A stretch of 64,000 nt of DNA, taken from NCBI GenBank assembly GCA_020050835.1, contig JAGVKB010000097.1:1-64000 (forward strand), read 5' to 3'. Under the pieces are notes generated by a model that saw nothing but the letters and a program-made list of their open reading frames with translations, ran no database searches and was not told the origin of the DNA. This document shows, one piece after another, positions 41,979 through 53,838 of the stretch. Position numbers and translations under genes: made by a program. This stretch comes from Candidatus Obscuribacterales bacterium. GTDB lineage: Bacteria > Cyanobacteriota > Vampirovibrionia > Obscuribacterales > Obscuribacteraceae. The first letter of the stretch is position 1. Each line of letters begins with the position of its first letter.

Positions 41979-44900
41979 CTACAACCACTTCAAACTACTC
42001 TGACAGCGCTTGATGCCTTCGACGTCTTCACAAAGACTGTACATCTCAATTGCATCGCTCCAGTCTTTCGCTTTCTCGAAACACTGCCCGGCTCGCTGCC
42101 ACTGTCGCACCTGTTTGTAGCACTGACCGGCCTTCTGCAACTGACCGTCGAGCTGGTACAACTCGGCCGCCAGCGCAAGTTTATGATCCTTTTCAAAACA
42201 ATCGGCTGCCTTACCCATGATCATCGCTTGCTTAAATCGATGGCCCGCCAGCATGAAATGCCCCATCTGTTCGTACACGGCGGCAGCGAGGTCCGGTCTT
42301 TCCTTTTGTTCGGCCCAGAGCGCGAGATCGAGCCTCAAGTCTCCCTGTTTGCCGCCAGAAGATGGATCCGATTTGAGCACGCTTCGAACCAGCTCAAGCG
42401 CTGGTGCGGTTTGATTGTCGAGCAGGTACAGTCGCGCGGCATCAACCTTTCGGTTCAACTTGGCCAGCATTGCAGCAGCAGCCGAGTAGTTACCAGCCTT
42501 GAGATAGTAGTCGGCCGCCTGATTCCATTGCTCGCCCTTTTCAAAACAGTAAGCCGCTTCGCTCAGTCCATTTACTCTTAAATAGTACTCAACCGCGCGC
42601 GGCAGATCGCCCAATCGTTCGCAGCAACGCCCTAGTCTTCCCCAGTCCTCCAGTTCCAGCAAAAGTGGCAGCGCTTTGATCCAATCTTGAGCATTCTCGA
42701 AACAATCGGCAGCCTTCTGCTTGTTTTCCAGCTTTAGATAGATCTCTCCGGCCTTGGGCCAGCTCTTCATTCGTTCATAAGCAGCGGCAGCCGTTTGCAA
42801 GTCTCCAGACCTTTCGGCGCACTGGGCGACCTCTTTTAGCCGTCCGGCTTTGGCATAGAGCGCTCGGGCTTTCTCAAATGATTCCGCTTGCTCGTAACAC
42901 TCAGCGGCCTCCGACCATCTATTAAGCGACTCTAAAAGTTTGGCCGCTTTCGCCGGCTGTCGAGCAGACATGAAACAGCGCGCAGCATCCAGCTTGTCCT
43001 TTACTTTCAAGTACATCTCCGCAGCTTGATCGAACTGGGAGCAGTGGCGATATAGCTCGGCAGCCTTTAACCATTGCCCTTTAAGCTTGAACAGGTCGGC
43101 TGCAAGCGACCAACTCTCAGCCCGTTCGTAACAAGCAGCGGCTTGAGCGGTATCACCGCACTTGGCAAAGTTTTCAGCAGCCGAACGCCAGTCTTGAACG
43201 ACTGCGTACAGCTCAGCAGCGCGCAGGTTTTGACCGGCCAATTCGAAACAACGCGCCGCCTCTGCCAGGGCATGATTCTCCTCATAATATTGGGCGGCCT
43301 CCGCGTATCTGCCAACCTGCTCGAGACAAAATGCCACCTCCCCGGCAAGATTGGCCAGTTTGAGATAAGGAACCGCATCTGAATACTGCTTGAGCGACTT
43401 GAAGGCCTGGCCCAAGCTTACCCAATCGCGACACTTCTTCCACAAACGAAGCGCTTGTTCCTTGAGTGCAATCCTGTCTTGGTCAGAGAGTTCGAATTCC
43501 TTGTCGTCTGAGGTTCTTTGCCATTCACCCCATGATTCCTGAGCCTTAACCCGTTCCAAAAAAATCACATTGTAATTTGGAACGTACTTCTCGCTTGCTT
43601 CATAGAACTCGTTCAATGCTTTTGGCGCCTGATCACGACGAAGATCGATCAGCTCTAGCAGCGCTTGAATCTTACTGCCCAAAAACAGTTGCAGTCGGCT
43701 CCAATCCTCGTCGGTCAGATAGATCAACAGATTCTTTCTGGCCCTGGTCACTCCCATATACCAGAGATCGAACATCCTGGCGATCAAATCCTCACCGCTC
43801 GTGTCATCAAGTTCCGAAAGCGAGCTAAACAAGCGATAAAGTATACAATCCTCGAATTCCATGCCTTTGCTCCTTCGCAAAGGCATGAGAAACAGTCCGT
43901 CGTCCAGCGGCAACTGCCTTCTGACCGATTTCAAATCGCTTTCGCTCTCGAATAGGACGACAAGCGGAGCCGGCAAAGCAACATCTCCTCTTCCGCCAAC
44001 CTCGTTCAAGAATTGCAGAAAGTTAGATTCGCTGCCGATTACAATCGTCGGTTTACGCAAAGAAAATTGCGGGGGCAACCCGAGATCGACTGTACCTTCC
44101 GGCGCACATTCGCGAATGAATTTGCTGATATTGAAAATTTCAAGAGTGTTCCTGAAATTGTTATGCAATTGCACTTTCATCATCGCTTTCGGGCGGTGCA
44201 TGGTCTTGAGAATCTCTTCGATATATGAATCCACCTCCTGCCAGCGGAAGCCAGAACGACTGATGTTCTGATGGCGATCTCCTGATAAGAACGGAAAGCT
44301 CAAGCGCTCCTTGTTCGACTTGCATTTGTTCTCCCAGAACAACAATATGGATTTCCACTCGAGCTCGGTGAAGTCCTGAATCTCGTCGATCACAATCCAG
44401 GTTGCCCGCCTTTCACCTGACAGGAATGCCGTATCTTTCATGTTCTGGTAGCAGTAACGAATCAGGTCGGCTTCGTCTCTTTGATTGGCGCGAGCAAGTC
44501 TACTTTCGTAAAGCTGAAAGATCTCCATTATTTCGTCAAGATTTTTCGGGCTTGTGCCGTAGCCCTTGAAAATTCGTCTGTAATCATCATCCGATTGAGG
44601 AAACTTATCCGAGCCAGGTATGAATCTTCCCTTTAAAATCGAATAAATATAGCTATAGGTGTCTTCAGCGTCGACAGTGCGGGTCCAACGTGACTTGGAC
44701 TGAACAATCTCCTCAATCAGCTTTAGACTTGCTTCTCTGTCGATCCACTGCCAGCTTGGCGATCTCTTGTCCAAATTTCGTCGCAGGTAATCACGACAAA
44801 ACTGCAAGTAAGAAAAAACTCTCAGCCCGCCAGAGTCTTCCTTCTCCAGCTCTTGTGAGTCGCCAACGAGATTGACTTTATAGCAGCGGCAAACACAGGC

Positions 44901-45581
44901 CAATTCGTCCTGATAAGTAAAGAAGAAGATATCGTCATCGGGATTGTGCTCGTACAAGTTGAGCGCATGAAAGAGAGCCAGCGTGGTCTTACCGGTACCG
45001 GCAGAACCCCGAACGACGAATGCTTTGTCGGTTTTGCTGATCAAGCGCTCCTGCTCCTCCGTCAACCGAAGATAGCGATCGATGTTCTTTTCAAAGGAGG
45101 AAAATTTTGCCGGCTCGACCAGCACGAAATGCGGCACTTCGAACAGCAGAAGACCATCAGTCAGACTCTCGTTGTCGACCACCCGCGTCTCGCTGTCAAG
45201 CTCGCCCAGCGGCTTGGCTCCGGCACCCCATGCTTCGACCGGCTCAAGCGTCTCGTCGCCACCAGAAAGATGCGCCGGAATGCTTATTCTGTCGACGCGA
45301 CAGTATGCGTCATCGTGATGATTGGCGTCCCAGATTACGAGCGAGCGCTTGTCACCGCGGCAGAACATTGAAAAGATAACGCGTATCTCCACATTGACAC
45401 GCGCTGAATAGACTTTGCCTTTACGTGTGTGGAGCTTCTCGACTCTCAGTCCCTTTAAGTCAAAGCGGCCAGAACGCAGCTTTTCAACCAGCTCCCAGAA
45501 CTTTCGCACATAAGGCTGCGGCAGTATGGAGTTTAGGGCAACTCTCACGCGCGGAGCCATGTATACGGTGTCGAAATGCAC
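41979..45581 (-). CDS. RelE-like domain fused to UvrD-like helicase and long TPR-like array
   Basis: GTG 45581 has GAGG six bases upstream; the product has 1200 residues. Residues 1-105 read like a RelE/ParE toxin fold (VRKFWELVEKLRSGRFDLKG, YSARVNVEIRVIFSM, VIWDANHHDDAY). A superfamily 1 helicase follows: Walker A GSAGTGKTT (about 194), Walker B VIDEIQDF (about 397), KGMEFEDC (about 575) and motif VI GVTRARKN (about 612). From about residue 700 to 1195 there is an array of CFE.AGDW..AA.LY-type repeats, about 20 residues each, as in TPR solenoids. It acts in the cytoplasm on nucleic acid. The fusion suggests a regulated RNA/DNA effector, possibly anti-phage; that role is inference. Confidence 0.85.
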   Translation of the reverse strand: MHFDTVYMAPRVRVALNSILPQPYVRKFWELVEKLRSGRFDLKGLRVEKLHTRKGKVYSARVNVEIRVIFSMFCRGDKRSLVIWDANHHDDAYCRVDRISIPAHLSGGDETLEPVEAWGAGAKPLGELDSETRVVDNESLTDGLLLFEVPHFVLVEPAKFSSFEKNIDRYLRLTEEQERLISKTDKAFVVRGSAGTGKTTLALFHALNLYEHNPDDDIFFFTYQDELACVCRCYKVNLVGDSQELEKEDSGGLRVFSYLQFCRDYLRRNLDKRSPSWQWIDREASLKLIEEIVQSKSRWTRTVDAEDTYSYIYSILKGRFIPGSDKFPQSDDDYRRIFKGYGTSPKNLDEIMEIFQLYESRLARANQRDEADLIRYCYQNMKDTAFLSGERRATWIVIDEIQDFTELEWKSILLFWENKCKSNKERLSFPFLSGDRHQNISRSGFRWQEVDSYIEEILKTMHRPKAMMKVQLHNNFRNTLEIFNISKFIRECAPEGTVDLGLPPQFSLRKPTIVIGSESNFLQFLNEVGGRGDVALPAPLVVLFESESDLKSVRRQLPLDDGLFLMPLRRSKGMEFEDCILYRLFSSLSELDDTSGEDLIARMFDLWYMGVTRARKNLLIYLTDEDWSRLQLFLGSKIQALLELIDLRRDQAPKALNEFYEASEKYVPNYNVIFLERVKAQESWGEWQRTSDDKEFELSDQDRIALKEQALRLWKKCRDWVSLGQAFKSLKQYSDAVPYLKLANLAGEVAFCLEQVGRYAEAAQYYEENHALAEAARCFELAGQNLRAAELYAVVQDWRSAAENFAKCGDTAQAAACYERAESWSLAADLFKLKGQWLKAAELYRHCSQFDQAAEMYLKVKDKLDAARCFMSARQPAKAAKLLESLNRWSEAAECYEQAESFEKARALYAKAGRLKEVAQCAERSGDLQTAAAAYERMKSWPKAGEIYLKLENKQKAADCFENAQDWIKALPLLLELEDWGRLGRCCERLGDLPRAVEYYLRVNGLSEAAYCFEKGEQWNQAADYYLKAGNYSAAAAMLAKLNRKVDAARLYLLDNQTAPALELVRSVLKSDPSSGGKQGDLRLDLALWAEQKERPDLAAAVYEQMGHFMLAGHRFKQAMIMGKAADCFEKDHKLALAAELYQLDGQLQKAGQCYKQVRQWQRAGQCFEKAKDWSDAIEMYSLCEDVEGIKRCQSSLKWL

Positions 45582-46993: not shown

Positions 46994-49900
46994 TTAACGC
47001 GGCAAGACAATCTCGACCGTGATCTCTCGTTCCTCACAAGCCGTCTTAACTTGTCCGCAATGGGCTTCGATTACCTTTAAGGCCACCAGCCAACGCATCC
47101 GGCTGCTGGCTGGTTCTTCCGTCTCAGCATTCAGTTTGGCGGTTCTGGCGACGAATGAATTGAGCATGTTACCGTCAACCTTACATTGATGCGCCAGCAA
47201 GCCAAAGCAGATGGAATCACCAGCGAAGCACTTAACCTCGATCTCCTTCGGCTGGCAAGCGAGCAATTCCCTCAGCACTCCGGACAGCGCCTGGCTCAGC
47301 CGTTCGACGTCAACATTTAGCTGGAGTTTGGCGCTAACACCGGTTATATTTACTAGCTCGGTTTCCTGCCTCAACCGGCTTAAGGCCTCGGTAAACAGGC
47401 AAGCAGCGTCGGTCGCCTCTAATTGCAACTCCAGTTTGCCGGATTCCAGCTTCTCGAGATCCAGTATGTCGTTGACCAGGTCCACTATCCGTTCTGACTC
47501 TTGATTGATCGCCAGAAAGGCCGGGCGCAATCGGTCAGACAGCGCACCATAAACTCCATTTACAGCCAGCAACGACATACCCGATATGCTTGTAATCGGA
47601 GAGCGCAGGTCATGAGTGATGACGGCGATGAACTCCCGTTTCAGACGCTCCAAGTTCTTACGCGTGGTGACATCGTGCGCAACGCAAAAGTAAGTTTTTT
47701 CAGTCGGCGACCAAGAAACAGACCAGAGCAGATCAATCCGCCGGCCATCGACAAAAACGCCTGTTTCAAGCTGGCTGGGTTGGCCAGTCGTTCTGGCTTG
47801 TTCGAGTCCCCGGCGCGCCGCCGAAGCCTCCGGCTCCTCGAGAATATCAAACAACGTCCAGCTGAAAGGCTGCCCGCCCGCCAACCCGAACAACTGGATC
47901 GTAGCCGGATTGTAAGCCACGAGTTGACCGGTCTGGCTTAAAGAGCAGATTACATTGCGAGCATTGTCTAAAAATGCTCTCTCCCTGGTCCGTTGCTCAA
48001 CAATCCTCAAGGCAGTTGCGTGAAAGTCTTGGTCCAGCTGCGCTATCTCGTCCGTTCCGGCCTGTGGGGGCGACACCGGCTTATGCTCGGCAAACTTTCT
48101 ACTGTTTCCGGACAGCGTTTTCAGGCGGCGCACAACATCCCAACTGAAGATAGCTGCCAATCCAAGAGCGGTAGCACAATTGATCACCAGCCCACTCAGC
48201 AGAATCATAGAGAGCTCCGAGCGCATCCGCGCTTGTCGGCTGAGCGCGTCCCGATGCCTCTTTTCCAACAAGGTAAGCAACCGCTCGACCTTTTGCGCCA
48301 TCTTGTCGCTCAAGTCCAGTATCTCACCGGCCGAAGCCCAGCATTCCTTAATCGTCAAGCGTCCCTGCTCAGATAATCCGATAACTCTCCGCACTCCGCC
48401 CACCAGCGGCTTGATGGCTGGCAACGCAGCTTGCGCAACCGATGCAGCCGGTGCATCGCGGCCGGCAACCCGACAAAAATCCTGGGCGGCTTCGCTGACC
48501 ATCGGCAAATGTTGCTCGCATCTTTGAATGGCGCCGGGATCACGCGATATGTAACTGACTGCATAGGCTACGGCAGCCAGATTTAGGACTAATTTCATGG
48601 CCGGCGCTGTCAACTCGCGATCATGTATCTGCCTTCGGACATCGCCTTCCCCCTGCATCAGCAACCCGAGCATCAGCGCGATGAAAGGAAGCTCAAACGC
48701 AAGCGGCACGCCGATCAAGAGTAGCCCCTTCTTACGCATCGACCAGTTCGCCCCAAACGAGACTCTTGTTTCCTTGCGAGCTCTTTCGTTCGGCTCCGGC
48801 GGTGGCTCGGGCACACTTGCAGCCAGCTGACTGCGAGCATCAAGGCCTTCTGACCTGGACTGCAGCGGTACCGATTTGGCGATCGGTAAGCGCAACCAGA
48901 ATGTGCTACCACGCTCCAGCTGTGAATCAACCCCGACTGCACCACCATGTTGCTCAACTATTCGCTTGCAGATAACCAAACCCAATCCAGAGCCAGATCC
49001 TCTGCGGCCATCCTCCCTTTCCACTTGCTGAAAGGGCTGAAACAAGGCGGACAACTTCTCGGCAGGAACGCCCCGTCCTTGATCGACCACCTGAATCAGC
49101 ACCATCGCACCTTCACGTTTGCCGATTAGCTCTACAGTGCTACCCTCCGGCGAGAATTTGATGGCATTCGACAGGAGATTGACCAGCACCCTCGTCAACT
49201 TATGCTGGTCCGCCTGCAATTGGCAATCATCGCCCTGACGCAAAATCGAAATACGTTTCAATTGCGCTGCGGACTCCACATCCCGACAACTTTCCTCAAA
49301 AATTTTGCTCAAACCGCACAGGGAATGCTCCAGCGCCAGATCGGTGCTTTGAAGATGCTCGATCTGCAGAAGATCTCCCACCAACTTGACCAGCCTGAGC
49401 ACAGTGCTTGCAGCGCCAGAGACTCTAACTCTTAAGGCGTCCGAAAGCTCCCCCAATCCGCCCTGGCTGATTGACTCTATTTGTATGGACATTCTCAACA
49501 GCGGCTGTTCGAACTCAGAAACAATCAGCCTGACGAGGTTGCGCTGCGCGTTCTCCAGGGCTTTCTGAGCACTAATGTCGTGCAGAACGCAATACCAGCA
49601 CTTTTGACTCGGCGTCCAGATCGCTGACCATAAGAGGCTTTTATCCAACTGCCGCCGCGTCAGACTATCGGACTCGAAGGAAGCAGCAATGCCGGTTAGA
49701 CGTGCTCTCTCCAGCTCTTCGATCGCCCGTTTTAGTCCTTCTCCGGTTAAAATCGCGGCGATCGGCTCGCCGCTTAGCTCTTCGACTGAAAAGCCGAGCG
49801 TGGTTTGAATCGCCTGATTGATTCTTGCAATCCTCATCTGCTCATTAAGAACACAGATGATGTCGCTGCTATTGTCGAAAAGCGCCTGCTCCCTTTCTGA

Positions 49901-50668
49901 CGCCAGAATGAGCTGGTAATTCATCGCATGAAAAGATCGATCCAGATCGCAGATTTCATCAGCACCCGATAGTGGATTGTTCAGATGTGTCCTCTGCTCG
50001 ATCCGTGAAACATTGTCTCGTACAACTGCTAACGGCGAGAGAAAGTTACGCCGGAAGTACCCAGCAAGCACGAGCGCTGCAGCGAGATTGAGCCCGACTC
50101 CGAGCAATACAACGGCAGCGCTCAATCGATAGACGTTGCTGAGGTAGATCTGTCCGTCTCGAGCCGCCCCGTTGACACTTTCGTAGAATTGAGAGACTAA
50201 CTGTTGAGCTTCGCTAAGCCGCCGGCAGGCGCGGTCCTCAACGGACTGAAGGCGATAGAGATTGGGTAGGGACAGTCCTTGCCGGGTAATCTCGGCGATC
50301 TTATCCAGAGTCGACAAAACAAATCGCTCGGCTTCAATCAATTGTTCGGACAAGAGCAAAGAGTCCTGACCAAGCTCGGGCTGCAAGGACGAGAGGACAT
50401 TTAAGTAGCTGCTCGTGCGAAGCGTCTGCAAATTATAGTGATCGAACTTCTTCTCGTCATACATAGCCCCGTTCAAGCTGTTTACAGCATGCATATTGCT
50501 AAAGAGCAGCCGAGCGCTCAAGATTGCCAGTTGGCGATCGACTGCTCCCTGTGTTTGTTGTCTGTCGGTGAGCATGACAAGAAAGGCCAGCGAGCCGATC
50601 AAGAGAAGCTCGATCGAAAGCGGAGTGAGGACGATGATCAGTCCCTTGTGAAACACCTTGAGCTTCAT
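46994..50668 (-). CDS. Double histidine kinase with complementary degenerate halves
   Basis: ATG 50668 aligns with the start of the neighbouring kinase (TTG 50686 is alternative); the protein has 1224 residues. Half 1: two membrane helices around a sensor, HAMP-like region, PAS domain, then a dimerisation helix where the phospho-acceptor His is replaced (VSEFEQPL for SHELRTPL), and an intact ATPase ([30 protein letters not shown]). Half 2 starts [17 protein letters not shown] and repeats sensor, HAMP and PAS. It keeps a normal acceptor motif [15 protein letters not shown] (His1019), but its ATPase has lost the N, G1 and G2 boxes. ATP bound by half 1 may phosphorylate the His of half 2; that is inference. 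It lies 27 bases after the next kinase. Confidence 0.9.
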
Positions 50669-50695: not shown

Positions 50696-52198
50696 TTACT
50701 TGGGATTCAAATCAGCACTGCCGCTGACGATCGGACTGCCCGCAAGCGGAACCGAAAACCAGAAAGTACTCCCTTTTCCCAGCTCGCTTTCAATGCCAAT
50801 TGACCCACCGTGTCCCTCGACTATCGCTTTACAGATTGCCAAACCGAGTCCGCTTCCTCCCCGCTCGCGAGCATCGGCTTCTTCGACTTGCTGAAAACGA
50901 TCGAAAATTGACTTAAGATGGCTGGCTGGAATTCCTCTGCCGCGATCGGTCACACGCAACTCCACGTATCTTTCCAGCTCTCTGACCGTAATGCTGACCG
51001 AACTGCCTTTCGGCGAAAACTTTATGGCATTAGACAAGATATTGACCAGAACCTGCACGAGTCGTTCGGCATCGGCGCTGATTCTTGCCTCAGTTTGAGC
51101 AGTCTCGACGCTGATACCGGAGCTATCAGCGAGGCTCTCGATTGCTTCTACCGAACGCTCAACGACCGAAGCGACTTCGACGTCCACAAATTGCATCTCG
51201 AGTTTGCCCGCCTCCATTTTTTCGAGATCGAGCAAGGTGTTAATCAGACAAATCAGACGTTCAGCGCTGCTTTCGGCCGCCCTGGTCTTAGCCAGTCCTG
51301 GGTCTGACAGTAAACCGTACGAGCCTTTGGCAATCATGGCCAGAACGAATTGAATGGCTGTCAGCGGCGATCTCAGATCGTGACTGATCATAGCCACGTA
51401 CTCTTGCTTGGCGCGCTCCGCCCGGTCCAGGTCATTTGCCATTTCATGAAAGACTTGATCGAGGCGAGCTATTTCATCTCCACCGCCCACCTGGGGATTT
51501 AGTTGTTGATGTTTCGACAGCCGGGAAGTATTGTCCATCACAACGTTCAAGCGGCTCGTCGTTCCCCGATTGAAGTAGACCGCTAGCCCGACGGCTAACA
51601 TCAAGTTGAGGAAGACACCGGCCAGCAATAGAAATTGAATCTTCTTGCGCATCTCCTCTGCCGTCTCGGGAGCGGAAGCGGCAACTTTCCTGACTCCGTC
51701 GGTAGCCTGGTCGAGCAGAGACTGGGCTTCATGCAAAATCTCCTTCATTTCGGACAGCCCCTTCAACGCTTCGATCATCCTTTTCTGTTCGAACGCCGAA
51801 TTGACTGCTTGATACTTAATCAAGCCTCTTTCAATCTTCCGCTCAAGTCGATAAATCAACTGTTCTTCGCTCGAGTGCCCCTTAACAAGAGCACGAAGCG
51901 TTCTAAACTCTTCTGAGAACTTCTCTTTGACAGCTGTCAGTCTTTCCTCGAACTCTTCTTCCGGCAAGAAAGAGCCCGGCAGTCCAATCTGATTGACCAA
52001 GTCCGCAATCGTGGAGACCAAAAGAACCAGAGAGTTGCTGGCGTGGGCGATTACTTCTCTCGCCCTCGTTTCGCGGACTCGTTCTTGTTCGGACTGCAAG
52101 AGCAGCATCGAGAGTACGGCGACAAAAATCAACTCGAACAGAAGCGGGATGCCGACCAGTATCAAACCTTTTTGGGATAGCGTTAATTTTAGTCGCAT
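50696..52198 (-). CDS. Membrane sensor histidine kinase, intact
   Basis: The 500-residue protein starts [20 protein letters not shown] with a membrane helix, a helical periplasmic sensor of about 150 residues, a second helix ([19 protein letters not shown]) and a HAMP-like linker. The kinase core is complete: [16 protein letters not shown] holds the acceptor His, then [15 protein letters not shown] (N box), VTDRGRGIP (G1) and [20 protein letters not shown] (G2). Its N-terminus and core are clearly homologous to both halves of the downstream double kinase, so the cluster arose by duplication. The response regulator/kinase fusion at 52576-53838 is divergently transcribed and is the obvious partner. 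Confidence 0.95.
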
Positions 52199-52575
52199 GA
52201 TCCACGCCGGAGGCAGACATTAGCTAATTACCCAGCAATAGACAGCCGTTATCCGATTGCAGCTTAACCACACAAAAGATGCCTGCCCTCAAAGTTATCG
52301 CCCCGCTCACACTCTCGACTTTATTATGCGACGCCCGGGAAGGGTCTCTAGCGTCGAACAGCGACTTAATCGAAGCTATCATTCAGAATCCGAACTAACT
52401 ACCGACAATGTTCGCTCAAGAACCGGCTCCCGACAGCCGGGTATGCTGCGTTGCAACTCCGAAGCAAGCGGGTAAGAAAGGACTATTGTTGACCTTGCAT
52501 CAGCCTGGTCGGCAGTGCTTTCATCACAACCAGATCGTCTTCAACATTGGAAGCCGGGAGGTCAAGCTACAAGAA
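52199..52575. other. Divergent intergenic region of the signalling cluster
   Basis: About 375 bases between two divergent signalling genes. An open stretch from ATG 52408 is in frame with the response regulator but lacks coding character. No clear palindrome or promoter pair is seen. Confidence 0.4.
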
Positions 52576-53838
52576 ATGGCAAGAATCCTTACGGCCGATG
52601 ACGATTCGCTTCTGCTTAGCGTGATCGAGGAATGGCTGAGCAGCGAAGGGCACGCCGTTGATGCTGTTTGCAACGGTAACGACTGTCGTGGCAGGCTTCA
52701 GTCAGAGTCTTACGACCTGATAATTCTAGATTGGGATCTGCCGGACGTCACCGGTATCGACTTGCTCAAGAGCTTTCGAGACTCAGGCGGCACCACCCCG
52801 ATCTTAATGTTAACCGGGCGCAGAGATATAGACGACAAGACGCTTGGATTTGACCTGGGAGCTGATGACTATCTGACCAAGCCGTTTCAACCCAAGGAGT
52901 TGTCTTCCCGTGTGAAGGCGCTGCTGAGACGCACGGCAGCGAAAGGTCCCAAAGCGCTGGGCGTAGGCAATGAGCAGCTTTTGAGCGATGGCGGATTGTT
53001 AGGAACCGCCCTTGCTGCCAAGTACGAATTTGTAAGCGTCCTGGGAGAAGGCGCGGCCGGTCTGGTTTACAAAGCCAGGCATCCTCAATTGGAAAAGCTC
53101 CTAGCAATAAAAATGCTGCACTATTACGGGATGAATCCGGAGATATATGCACGATTCGAGCGCGAAGCAGTTTTAGTGAGCCGTTTGAACCATCCGCACA
53201 TCGCAGCAATCTACGACTATGGCGTTACAGAACGCAACCGACCTTTCATGGTAATGGAATATGTCGAAGGCAACGGTCTCGATCAGATTATTCGTCAACG
53301 AGATCATGTGCCATTCAAGGAAGCGCTGAACATGTTCTCGCAGGTATGCGATGCCATGTCTCATGCGCACGAAAGGGGCATTGTCCACCGCGATCTCAAG
53401 CCGAGCAATATCATGATCAACCAGAAAAATTCCCTGGCCAAGGTGCTTGATTTCGGCTGCGGTAAGCTGCGAGATCTCTACGGTGATCAATCCTCCGCCC
53501 TTACTAAGGACGGGCACAGCCTGGGAACACCTTCCTACATGAGCCCGGAGCAAGTGCGCGGAATAGCTGTGGACGAACGTTCCGACATCTATTCATTGGG
53601 TTGTGTGCTCTATGAGGCGATCACCGGATATGTGCTTCATCTCGGTGAGAACCCGGCTCAAACAATGCTGAAACATCTCGAGGAGAGTGTACCGAAACTA
53701 GCCGACATGAATCCAGCGCTGACTATCCCTGTCGAGTTGGAAGAACTGGTAGCAAAAGCGCTCCACAAGGAAGTCGATCAACGATATCAATCGATGTTGG
53801 AATTAAGTAAGGCGATCGACCAGGTCTTGCTCACCTGA
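52576..53838 (+). CDS. Response regulator receiver fused to Ser/Thr protein kinase
   Basis: ATG 52576 begins ARILTADDDSLLLSVIEEWL, a normal receiver start; an extension to 52408 is possible. The receiver (1-120) has the acidic pair DDD, the phosphorylation site in IILDWDLPDVTG and the Lys in YLTKPFQP. The kinase (about 150-420) has GEGAAGLVYKARH (P-loop), LAIKML (Lys), IVHRDLKPSN (catalytic loop), VLDFGCGK (DFG) and YMSPEQVRG. Both modules look active, so a phosphorelay from the histidine kinases could switch a Ser/Thr kinase. It is divergent from the two sensor kinases, which supports a common pathway. No transmembrane helix is present. Confidence 0.95.
   Translation: MARILTADDDSLLLSVIEEWLSSEGHAVDAVCNGNDCRGRLQSESYDLIILDWDLPDVTGIDLLKSFRDSGGTTPILMLTGRRDIDDKTLGFDLGADDYLTKPFQPKELSSRVKALLRRTAAKGPKALGVGNEQLLSDGGLLGTALAAKYEFVSVLGEGAAGLVYKARHPQLEKLLAIKMLHYYGMNPEIYARFEREAVLVSRLNHPHIAAIYDYGVTERNRPFMVMEYVEGNGLDQIIRQRDHVPFKEALNMFSQVCDAMSHAHERGIVHRDLKPSNIMINQKNSLAKVLDFGCGKLRDLYGDQSSALTKDGHSLGTPSYMSPEQVRGIAVDERSDIYSLGCVLYEAITGYVLHLGENPAQTMLKHLEESVPKLADMNPALTIPVELEELVAKALHKEVDQRYQSMLELSKAIDQVLLT

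Follow-up and report, generated by a model that had tools for sequence, protein, structure and literature searches.

A fused double histidine kinase of Obscuribacterales with reciprocally degenerate halves is very probably a single-chain obligate heterodimer

Histidine kinases normally act as homodimers, and in a trans-acting dimer each CA domain phosphorylates the acceptor histidine of its partner. How duplicated kinases avoid or exploit the formation of heterodimers is an open question, and it is raised by a gene in the 64,000-nucleotide stretch of DNA analyzed here (the window), which comes from contig JAGVKB010000097.1 of a Candidatus Obscuribacterales bacterium. The gene (positions 46994 to 50668, reverse strand) encodes a fused double histidine kinase of 1224 amino acids, and a preliminary description made from the sequence proposed that each half of the protein has lost what the other half retains. 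How, then, might such a protein carry out a phosphorylation reaction, and do its halves have any function apart from each other?

The open reading frame begins with ATG and has no internal stop codons, and its product consists of two similar membrane sensor-PAS-DHp-CA modules in tandem. Hydropathy analysis reveals two transmembrane pairs, at about residues 10-28 and 184-202 in half 1 and 649-667 and 822-840 in half 2; as annotated features, the four helices span about residues 11-33 (50570-50638), 184-208 (50045-50119), 648-668 (48665-48727), and 823-843 (48140-48202), on the reverse strand like all parts of this gene. A helical periplasmic sensor is predicted in each half, and a weak HAMP match (E 7e-4, below the Pfam cut-off) follows the second helix of half 1. 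Pfam also detects one PAS stretch per half, at residues 261-366 (49571-49888; PAS/PAS_4/PAS_9) and at about 897-1003 (47660-47980), the latter with predicted PAS secondary structure. Thus, the proposal that each half has its own membrane sensor and PAS domain is borne out. The halves are joined by a disordered cytoplasmic linker at about residues 601-640 (48749-48868; pLDDT below 40). No clear ribosome-binding site was found upstream of the internal ATG at residue 644, from which half 2 could be translated separately. In many of the approximately 85 kinase modules of this genome, the first transmembrane helix carries the same MxxKGLILVxVPLxFEL-like motif.

The catalytic boxes were aligned against an intact kinase encoded next to the double kinase, at 50696-52198. 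In half 1, the residues I-V-S-E-F-E-Q-P align to I-S-H-D-L-R-S-P, which puts Ser384 at the histidine position (SEFEQP, 49502-49519). The surrounding DHp domain (374-443; 49340-49549) is recognized by our own HMM with 88 bits and by the family alignment, and its Pfam HisKA score of 16.2 bits falls under the cut-off of 26.9. The N, G1, F, and G2 boxes of half 1 are all intact (15 residues not shown, plus SGSGLGL), and the only HATPase_c match in the protein covers its CA domain (487-597, E 8e-28; 48878-49210). Half 2 presents the opposite picture. Its DHp domain (1010-1077; 47438-47641) gives the only HisKA match (E 1.8e-16) and has an intact H box, ITHDLRSP, with His1019 as the acceptor (codon 47612-47614), and its pseudo-CA domain (about 1117-1224; 46997-47320) has lost the N, G1, F, and G2 boxes (27 residues not shown, plus ASSRMRW). 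The earlier account of both halves therefore holds, including the residue number of the acceptor. Taken as a whole, the chain has what a HisKA kinase needs, with the acceptor histidine coming from half 2 and the ATP boxes from half 1, and neither half combines an acceptor histidine with an ATP site in one module.

Predicted structures indicate that the degenerate half is still folded as a kinase. The DHp-CA model of half 1 matches HK853 with a Z score of 24.8, and that of half 2 keeps the kinase fold (AF2 pLDDT 85.7, pTM 0.77) and matches the kinase regions of GacS, DivL, and RetS over its full length (Z about 17-18). The AF2 model of the full chain, computed as a single chain, has a pTM of 0.47. 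An intact CA2 fold is what would be expected if this domain bound ATP in an unusual manner and phosphorylated His1019 in cis, with half 1 serving as a pseudo-kinase sensor. This arrangement is highly improbable, given that the window protein has none of the N-box Asn, the G1 Asp and Gly, and the G2 Gly, that its relatives have lost them in different ways, and that CA1 is conserved.

The presence of two kinase modules in one chain also recalls TodS (PMC4321377), in which case half 1 would autophosphorylate and hand the phosphate to half 2 by an intramolecular relay. TodS likewise has two PAS-kinase modules in a single chain, but a receiver domain lies at its center, its N-terminal module is an active autokinase, and it is not described as reciprocally degenerate (PMC4321377). 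The window protein gives no Response_reg match at E values up to 1, and half 1 cannot carry phosphate because it lacks an acceptor histidine. The probability of such a relay is close to nil, and for the 1224-aa protein the sequence rules it out.

Among 50 genomes of the same family, together with named Candidatus Obscuribacterales and Melainabacteria genomes, 35 distinct complete double kinases from Obscuribacterales were found, and each half was scored for six key ATP-site residues and for the acceptor histidine. Loss of the half 1 histidine together with a degenerate ATP site in half 2 is seen in 29 of the 35, and in 28 of these at least two of the six key residues of the second ATP site are gone. 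Five doubles are intact in both halves, one (contig 56 of the same genome as the window) has lost the half 1 histidine and kept the second ATP site, and no other combination, including the opposite polarity, occurs among the 35 fused proteins. In other words, the histidine of half 1 is missing from 30 doubles, and both the half 2 histidine and the ATP boxes of half 1 are kept in all 35. The residue that replaces the first histidine varies (S, F, Y, Q, N, R, D, or E), which indicates that the loss is real and that no alternative acceptor is conserved at this position. Columns without any variation in an alignment of 18 reciprocal doubles include, in half 1, N497, N501, D529, G531, G533, F543, G559, G561, and G563 and, in half 2, H1019, D1020, L1021, R1022, and P1024.

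These proteins are of three types. Doubles of the window type, with PAS domains, are about 1220-1350 aa long and occur in four genera, and PAS-less doubles of two types (about 1025-1080 and 975-1036 aa) occur in two genera. A double kinase beside a Rieske-domain gene has been kept in two genera (L034 and L037), and these loci are probably orthologous. Six PAS-less double kinases are clustered within about 25 kb on a single contig (L217/L218; G054:C66:15067-40381).

The extreme divergence of the half 2 CA domain, with its long branch, could be taken as a sign that the gene has been degenerating since its duplication, in one or both halves and without any coordinated function. Such decay would not be expected to follow a rule, and yet the losses are never random: the histidine disappears from half 1 and the ATP boxes from half 2. 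Furthermore, a frame of some 1200 codons has been kept in several genera despite saturated silent sites. Because dS is mostly saturated even between close relatives, dN/dS could be obtained for few segments. Between such relatives, conservation is highest in DHp1, CA1, and DHp2, and CA2 is the least constrained catalytic part, varying about as much as the sensors with its frame kept. Pseudogene decay was rejected on the basis of the fixed polarity of loss and this conservation, and uncoordinated degeneration in any form is very unlikely. The persistence of DHp1 without its histidine fits a role as a dimer scaffold. The conserved and recurrent reciprocal loss lends strong support to the suggestion that the halves may function only jointly, as does the combination of saturated silent sites with conserved DHp1, CA1, and DHp2. 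Judged from sequence patterns, the catalytic interdependence of the halves is strongly supported, and it is very probable that neither works without the other.

A partner outside the chain must also be considered. The intact kinase used as the alignment reference (50696-52198, reverse strand) belongs to the same family as the double kinase and is a complete single kinase; its gene is co-directional, ends 27 nt upstream, and probably shares an operon with the double kinase. It might supply the phosphate, for example as part of a heterodimer, with half 2 as the acceptor and half 1 reduced to an ATP-binding regulator, and there is precedent for kinase heterodimers and pseudokinase cross-talk in ChrS/HrrS (PMC9491836). 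On the other hand, the flanks of the doubles at L034-L038, L041-L043, and L046 have no intact kinase gene directly upstream, and CA1 keeps its catalytic residues unchanged throughout the 35 doubles, which would be needless for a mere regulator. Phosphate donation by another kinase is thus unlikely, albeit the least unlikely of the alternatives. Beyond this neighbor, a divergent gene (52408-53838, forward strand) encodes a receiver-Ser/Thr-kinase protein (Pfam Response_reg and Pkinase) that is a candidate response regulator.

The genome that carries the window provides a further measure of how exceptional the arrangement is. It has about 85 HisKA-type modules in 7.0 Mb, a large lineage-specific expansion of sensors. 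In a census based on the kinase loci collected from this genome, 74 of 85 modules are intact. Five have lost the histidine alone, namely half 1 of the window protein, half 1 of the contig 56 double, and one gene each on contigs C114, C141, and C12, and all five adjoin a histidine-bearing module in the same chain or in the next gene. Because most modules are intact and every histidine-less one lies beside a histidine-bearing one, the arrangement in the window exceeds what chance would produce. One kinase-like protein in the same genome (L189:886-3234; G000:C73) has an altered H box (LSDSIRAP), altered ATP boxes (QLLEKMIVI, SSGAVV), and no obvious partner, and it is possibly a full pseudokinase.

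Fusion is not the only form in which this split occurs. The same division is found between adjacent, co-directional, and often overlapping genes at L048, L066, L076, and L084, more weakly at L088, and in the unfused pairs of C114, C141, and C12. In two-gene pairs such as those at L048, L084, and C114, the two functions lie on separate proteins, as they do in the CheA3/CheA4 split kinase but not in the 1224-aa chain. The C114 pair (G000:C114:109355-113737; L143:5356-9737) is a tandem duplicate in which the first gene has Tyr in place of His and the second has weakened G1 and G2 boxes, and it is followed by one OmpR-type response regulator. At L048, L084, and C114, a lone regulator of this type stands beside the pair of genes; if two half-kinases form a joint unit, a single shared regulator would be expected. 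A receiver-HTH-Ser/Thr-kinase gene lies divergent from the L076 pair, and the divergent gene at 52408-53838 in the window resembles it. The C12 pair (G000:C12, about 105500-110000; L151:2325-6524), which is on the same contig as the window but outside it, also shows reciprocal loss, but its gene order is reversed relative to the other pairs, and an in-frame TAA interrupts its histidine-less, ATP-intact gene immediately behind the N box. Both the reversed order and the stop in the ATP-intact gene count against a heterodimer model.

Relationships among the modules point to more than one origin for the histidine loss. The fusion is old and its halves have moved as one unit, since the nearest relatives of half 1 of the window protein are other half 1 modules and those of half 2 are other half 2 modules. 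For C114 and C141, the best match of the histidine-bearing gene is its own neighbor, which indicates independent tandem duplications. A single origin of all histidine-less modules is rejected by the AU test (p-AU 0.0015), and parsimony calls for 7-8 changes. The test is compatible with a single origin for all fused half 1 modules (p-AU 0.67) and with a group that joins PAS-bearing half 1 modules to the genes of L048, L084, L066, and L076 (p 0.17). Consequently, there were at least two origins, with 7-8 by parsimony, and the exact number is uncertain. The order of the losses can be read from the surviving forms: since one form shows loss of the first histidine alone and none shows loss of the second ATP site alone, the half 1 histidine was probably the first to go. 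It is likely that Obscuribacterales have repeatedly made obligate division-of-labor heterodimers from tandem-duplicated membrane histidine kinases, often fused, with the histidine lost first and the ATP site afterwards.

For the window protein, these observations lead to a reading that we consider very probable, namely that it is a histidine kinase whose single chain contains both members of an obligate heterodimer and that CA1 acts across the dimer to phosphorylate His1019. Without a histidine in half 1, a trans-acting CA2 is left with nothing to phosphorylate and is free to decay, and CA1 and the second histidine must stay. A cis mechanism would keep CA2 and lose CA1, and the reverse is seen. 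The retained ATPase is always opposite the retained histidine, a pattern that argues for phosphorylation between unlike halves. DHp1 and DHp2 might pack as one dimeric bundle, either within a chain or between two chains, with DHp1 remaining as a scaffold. CA1 would be the sole ATP-binding engine, and CA2, still folded, might have a structural or regulatory role without binding nucleotide. From His1019 the phosphate would pass to a response regulator, and the two different membrane/PAS sensors would feed one phosphorylation event. The inputs of the two sensors could be combined by the AND logic of the preliminary description, or additively, or antagonistically. The HisKA phosphatase motif HE/DxxN/T includes the H+4 residue (PMC3591291), which in half 2 is Thr or Asn in 30 of 35 doubles and Ser in four, including the window protein. 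His1019 with its H+4 Ser/Thr could double as a phosphatase site, and half 2 may therefore carry phosphatase activity as well. Such a protein could have arisen by fusion of tandem duplicates, followed by loss of the half 1 histidine and later decay of CA2.

Several characterized systems resemble parts of this scheme. In CheA3/CheA4 of Rhodobacter sphaeroides, ATP-using and phosphate-accepting functions likewise reside on separate partners, neither partner is active alone, and the phosphoacceptor partner is also a phosphatase (PMC3591291). Those proteins are CheA-type, lack whole domains, and are separate (PMC3591291), whereas the window kinase keeps all its domains, has lost only catalytic residues, and joins HisKA membrane sensors in one chain. 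EnvZ H243A and G2-box mutants have the same complementary defects and complement each other in vitro by trans phosphorylation in a heterodimer (PMC4734776); these are laboratory mutants, whereas the window arrangement is natural, fused, and conserved. ArcB and EvgS act in cis and do not complement. DivL (PMC4211667), RetS, and ChrS-fs (PMC9491836) have kinase folds with catalytic loss and act by pairing, and the half 2 fold resembles DivL and RetS. They modulate a separate active kinase, however, whereas in the window protein the function missing from one half is retained by the other.

Double kinases that lack a receiver domain are very rare: two transmitter domains were found in only two of 15,704 surveyed non-hybrid kinases (PMC3018481), which makes the Obscuribacterales lineage exceptional. 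The principle of a split kinase is already known from CheA3/CheA4; in the open-access literature, we found no paper on fused or double histidine kinases, none on heterodimeric histidine kinases under that name, an incidental one on Obscuribacter and histidine kinases, and no description of a fused, recurrent, reciprocally degenerate HisKA form. If the proposed reading is correct, these proteins would form a class of single-chain kinases with two inputs that occurs naturally throughout the lineage, and their evolution would preserve a record of trans autophosphorylation. The surviving series comprises intact doubles, loss of the first histidine only, fully reciprocal forms, and unfused two-gene forms. 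Natural proteins of this kind make it possible to test the passage from homodimer to obligate heterodimer, the sharing of one phosphorylation by two sensors, and the choice between cis and trans mechanisms. Elsewhere in the window, a 1200-aa protein (41979-45581, reverse strand), whose first 110 residues look like a RelE/ParE-type fold, without support from Pfam, carries a UvrD-like helicase domain and, after it, a large number of TPR repeats.
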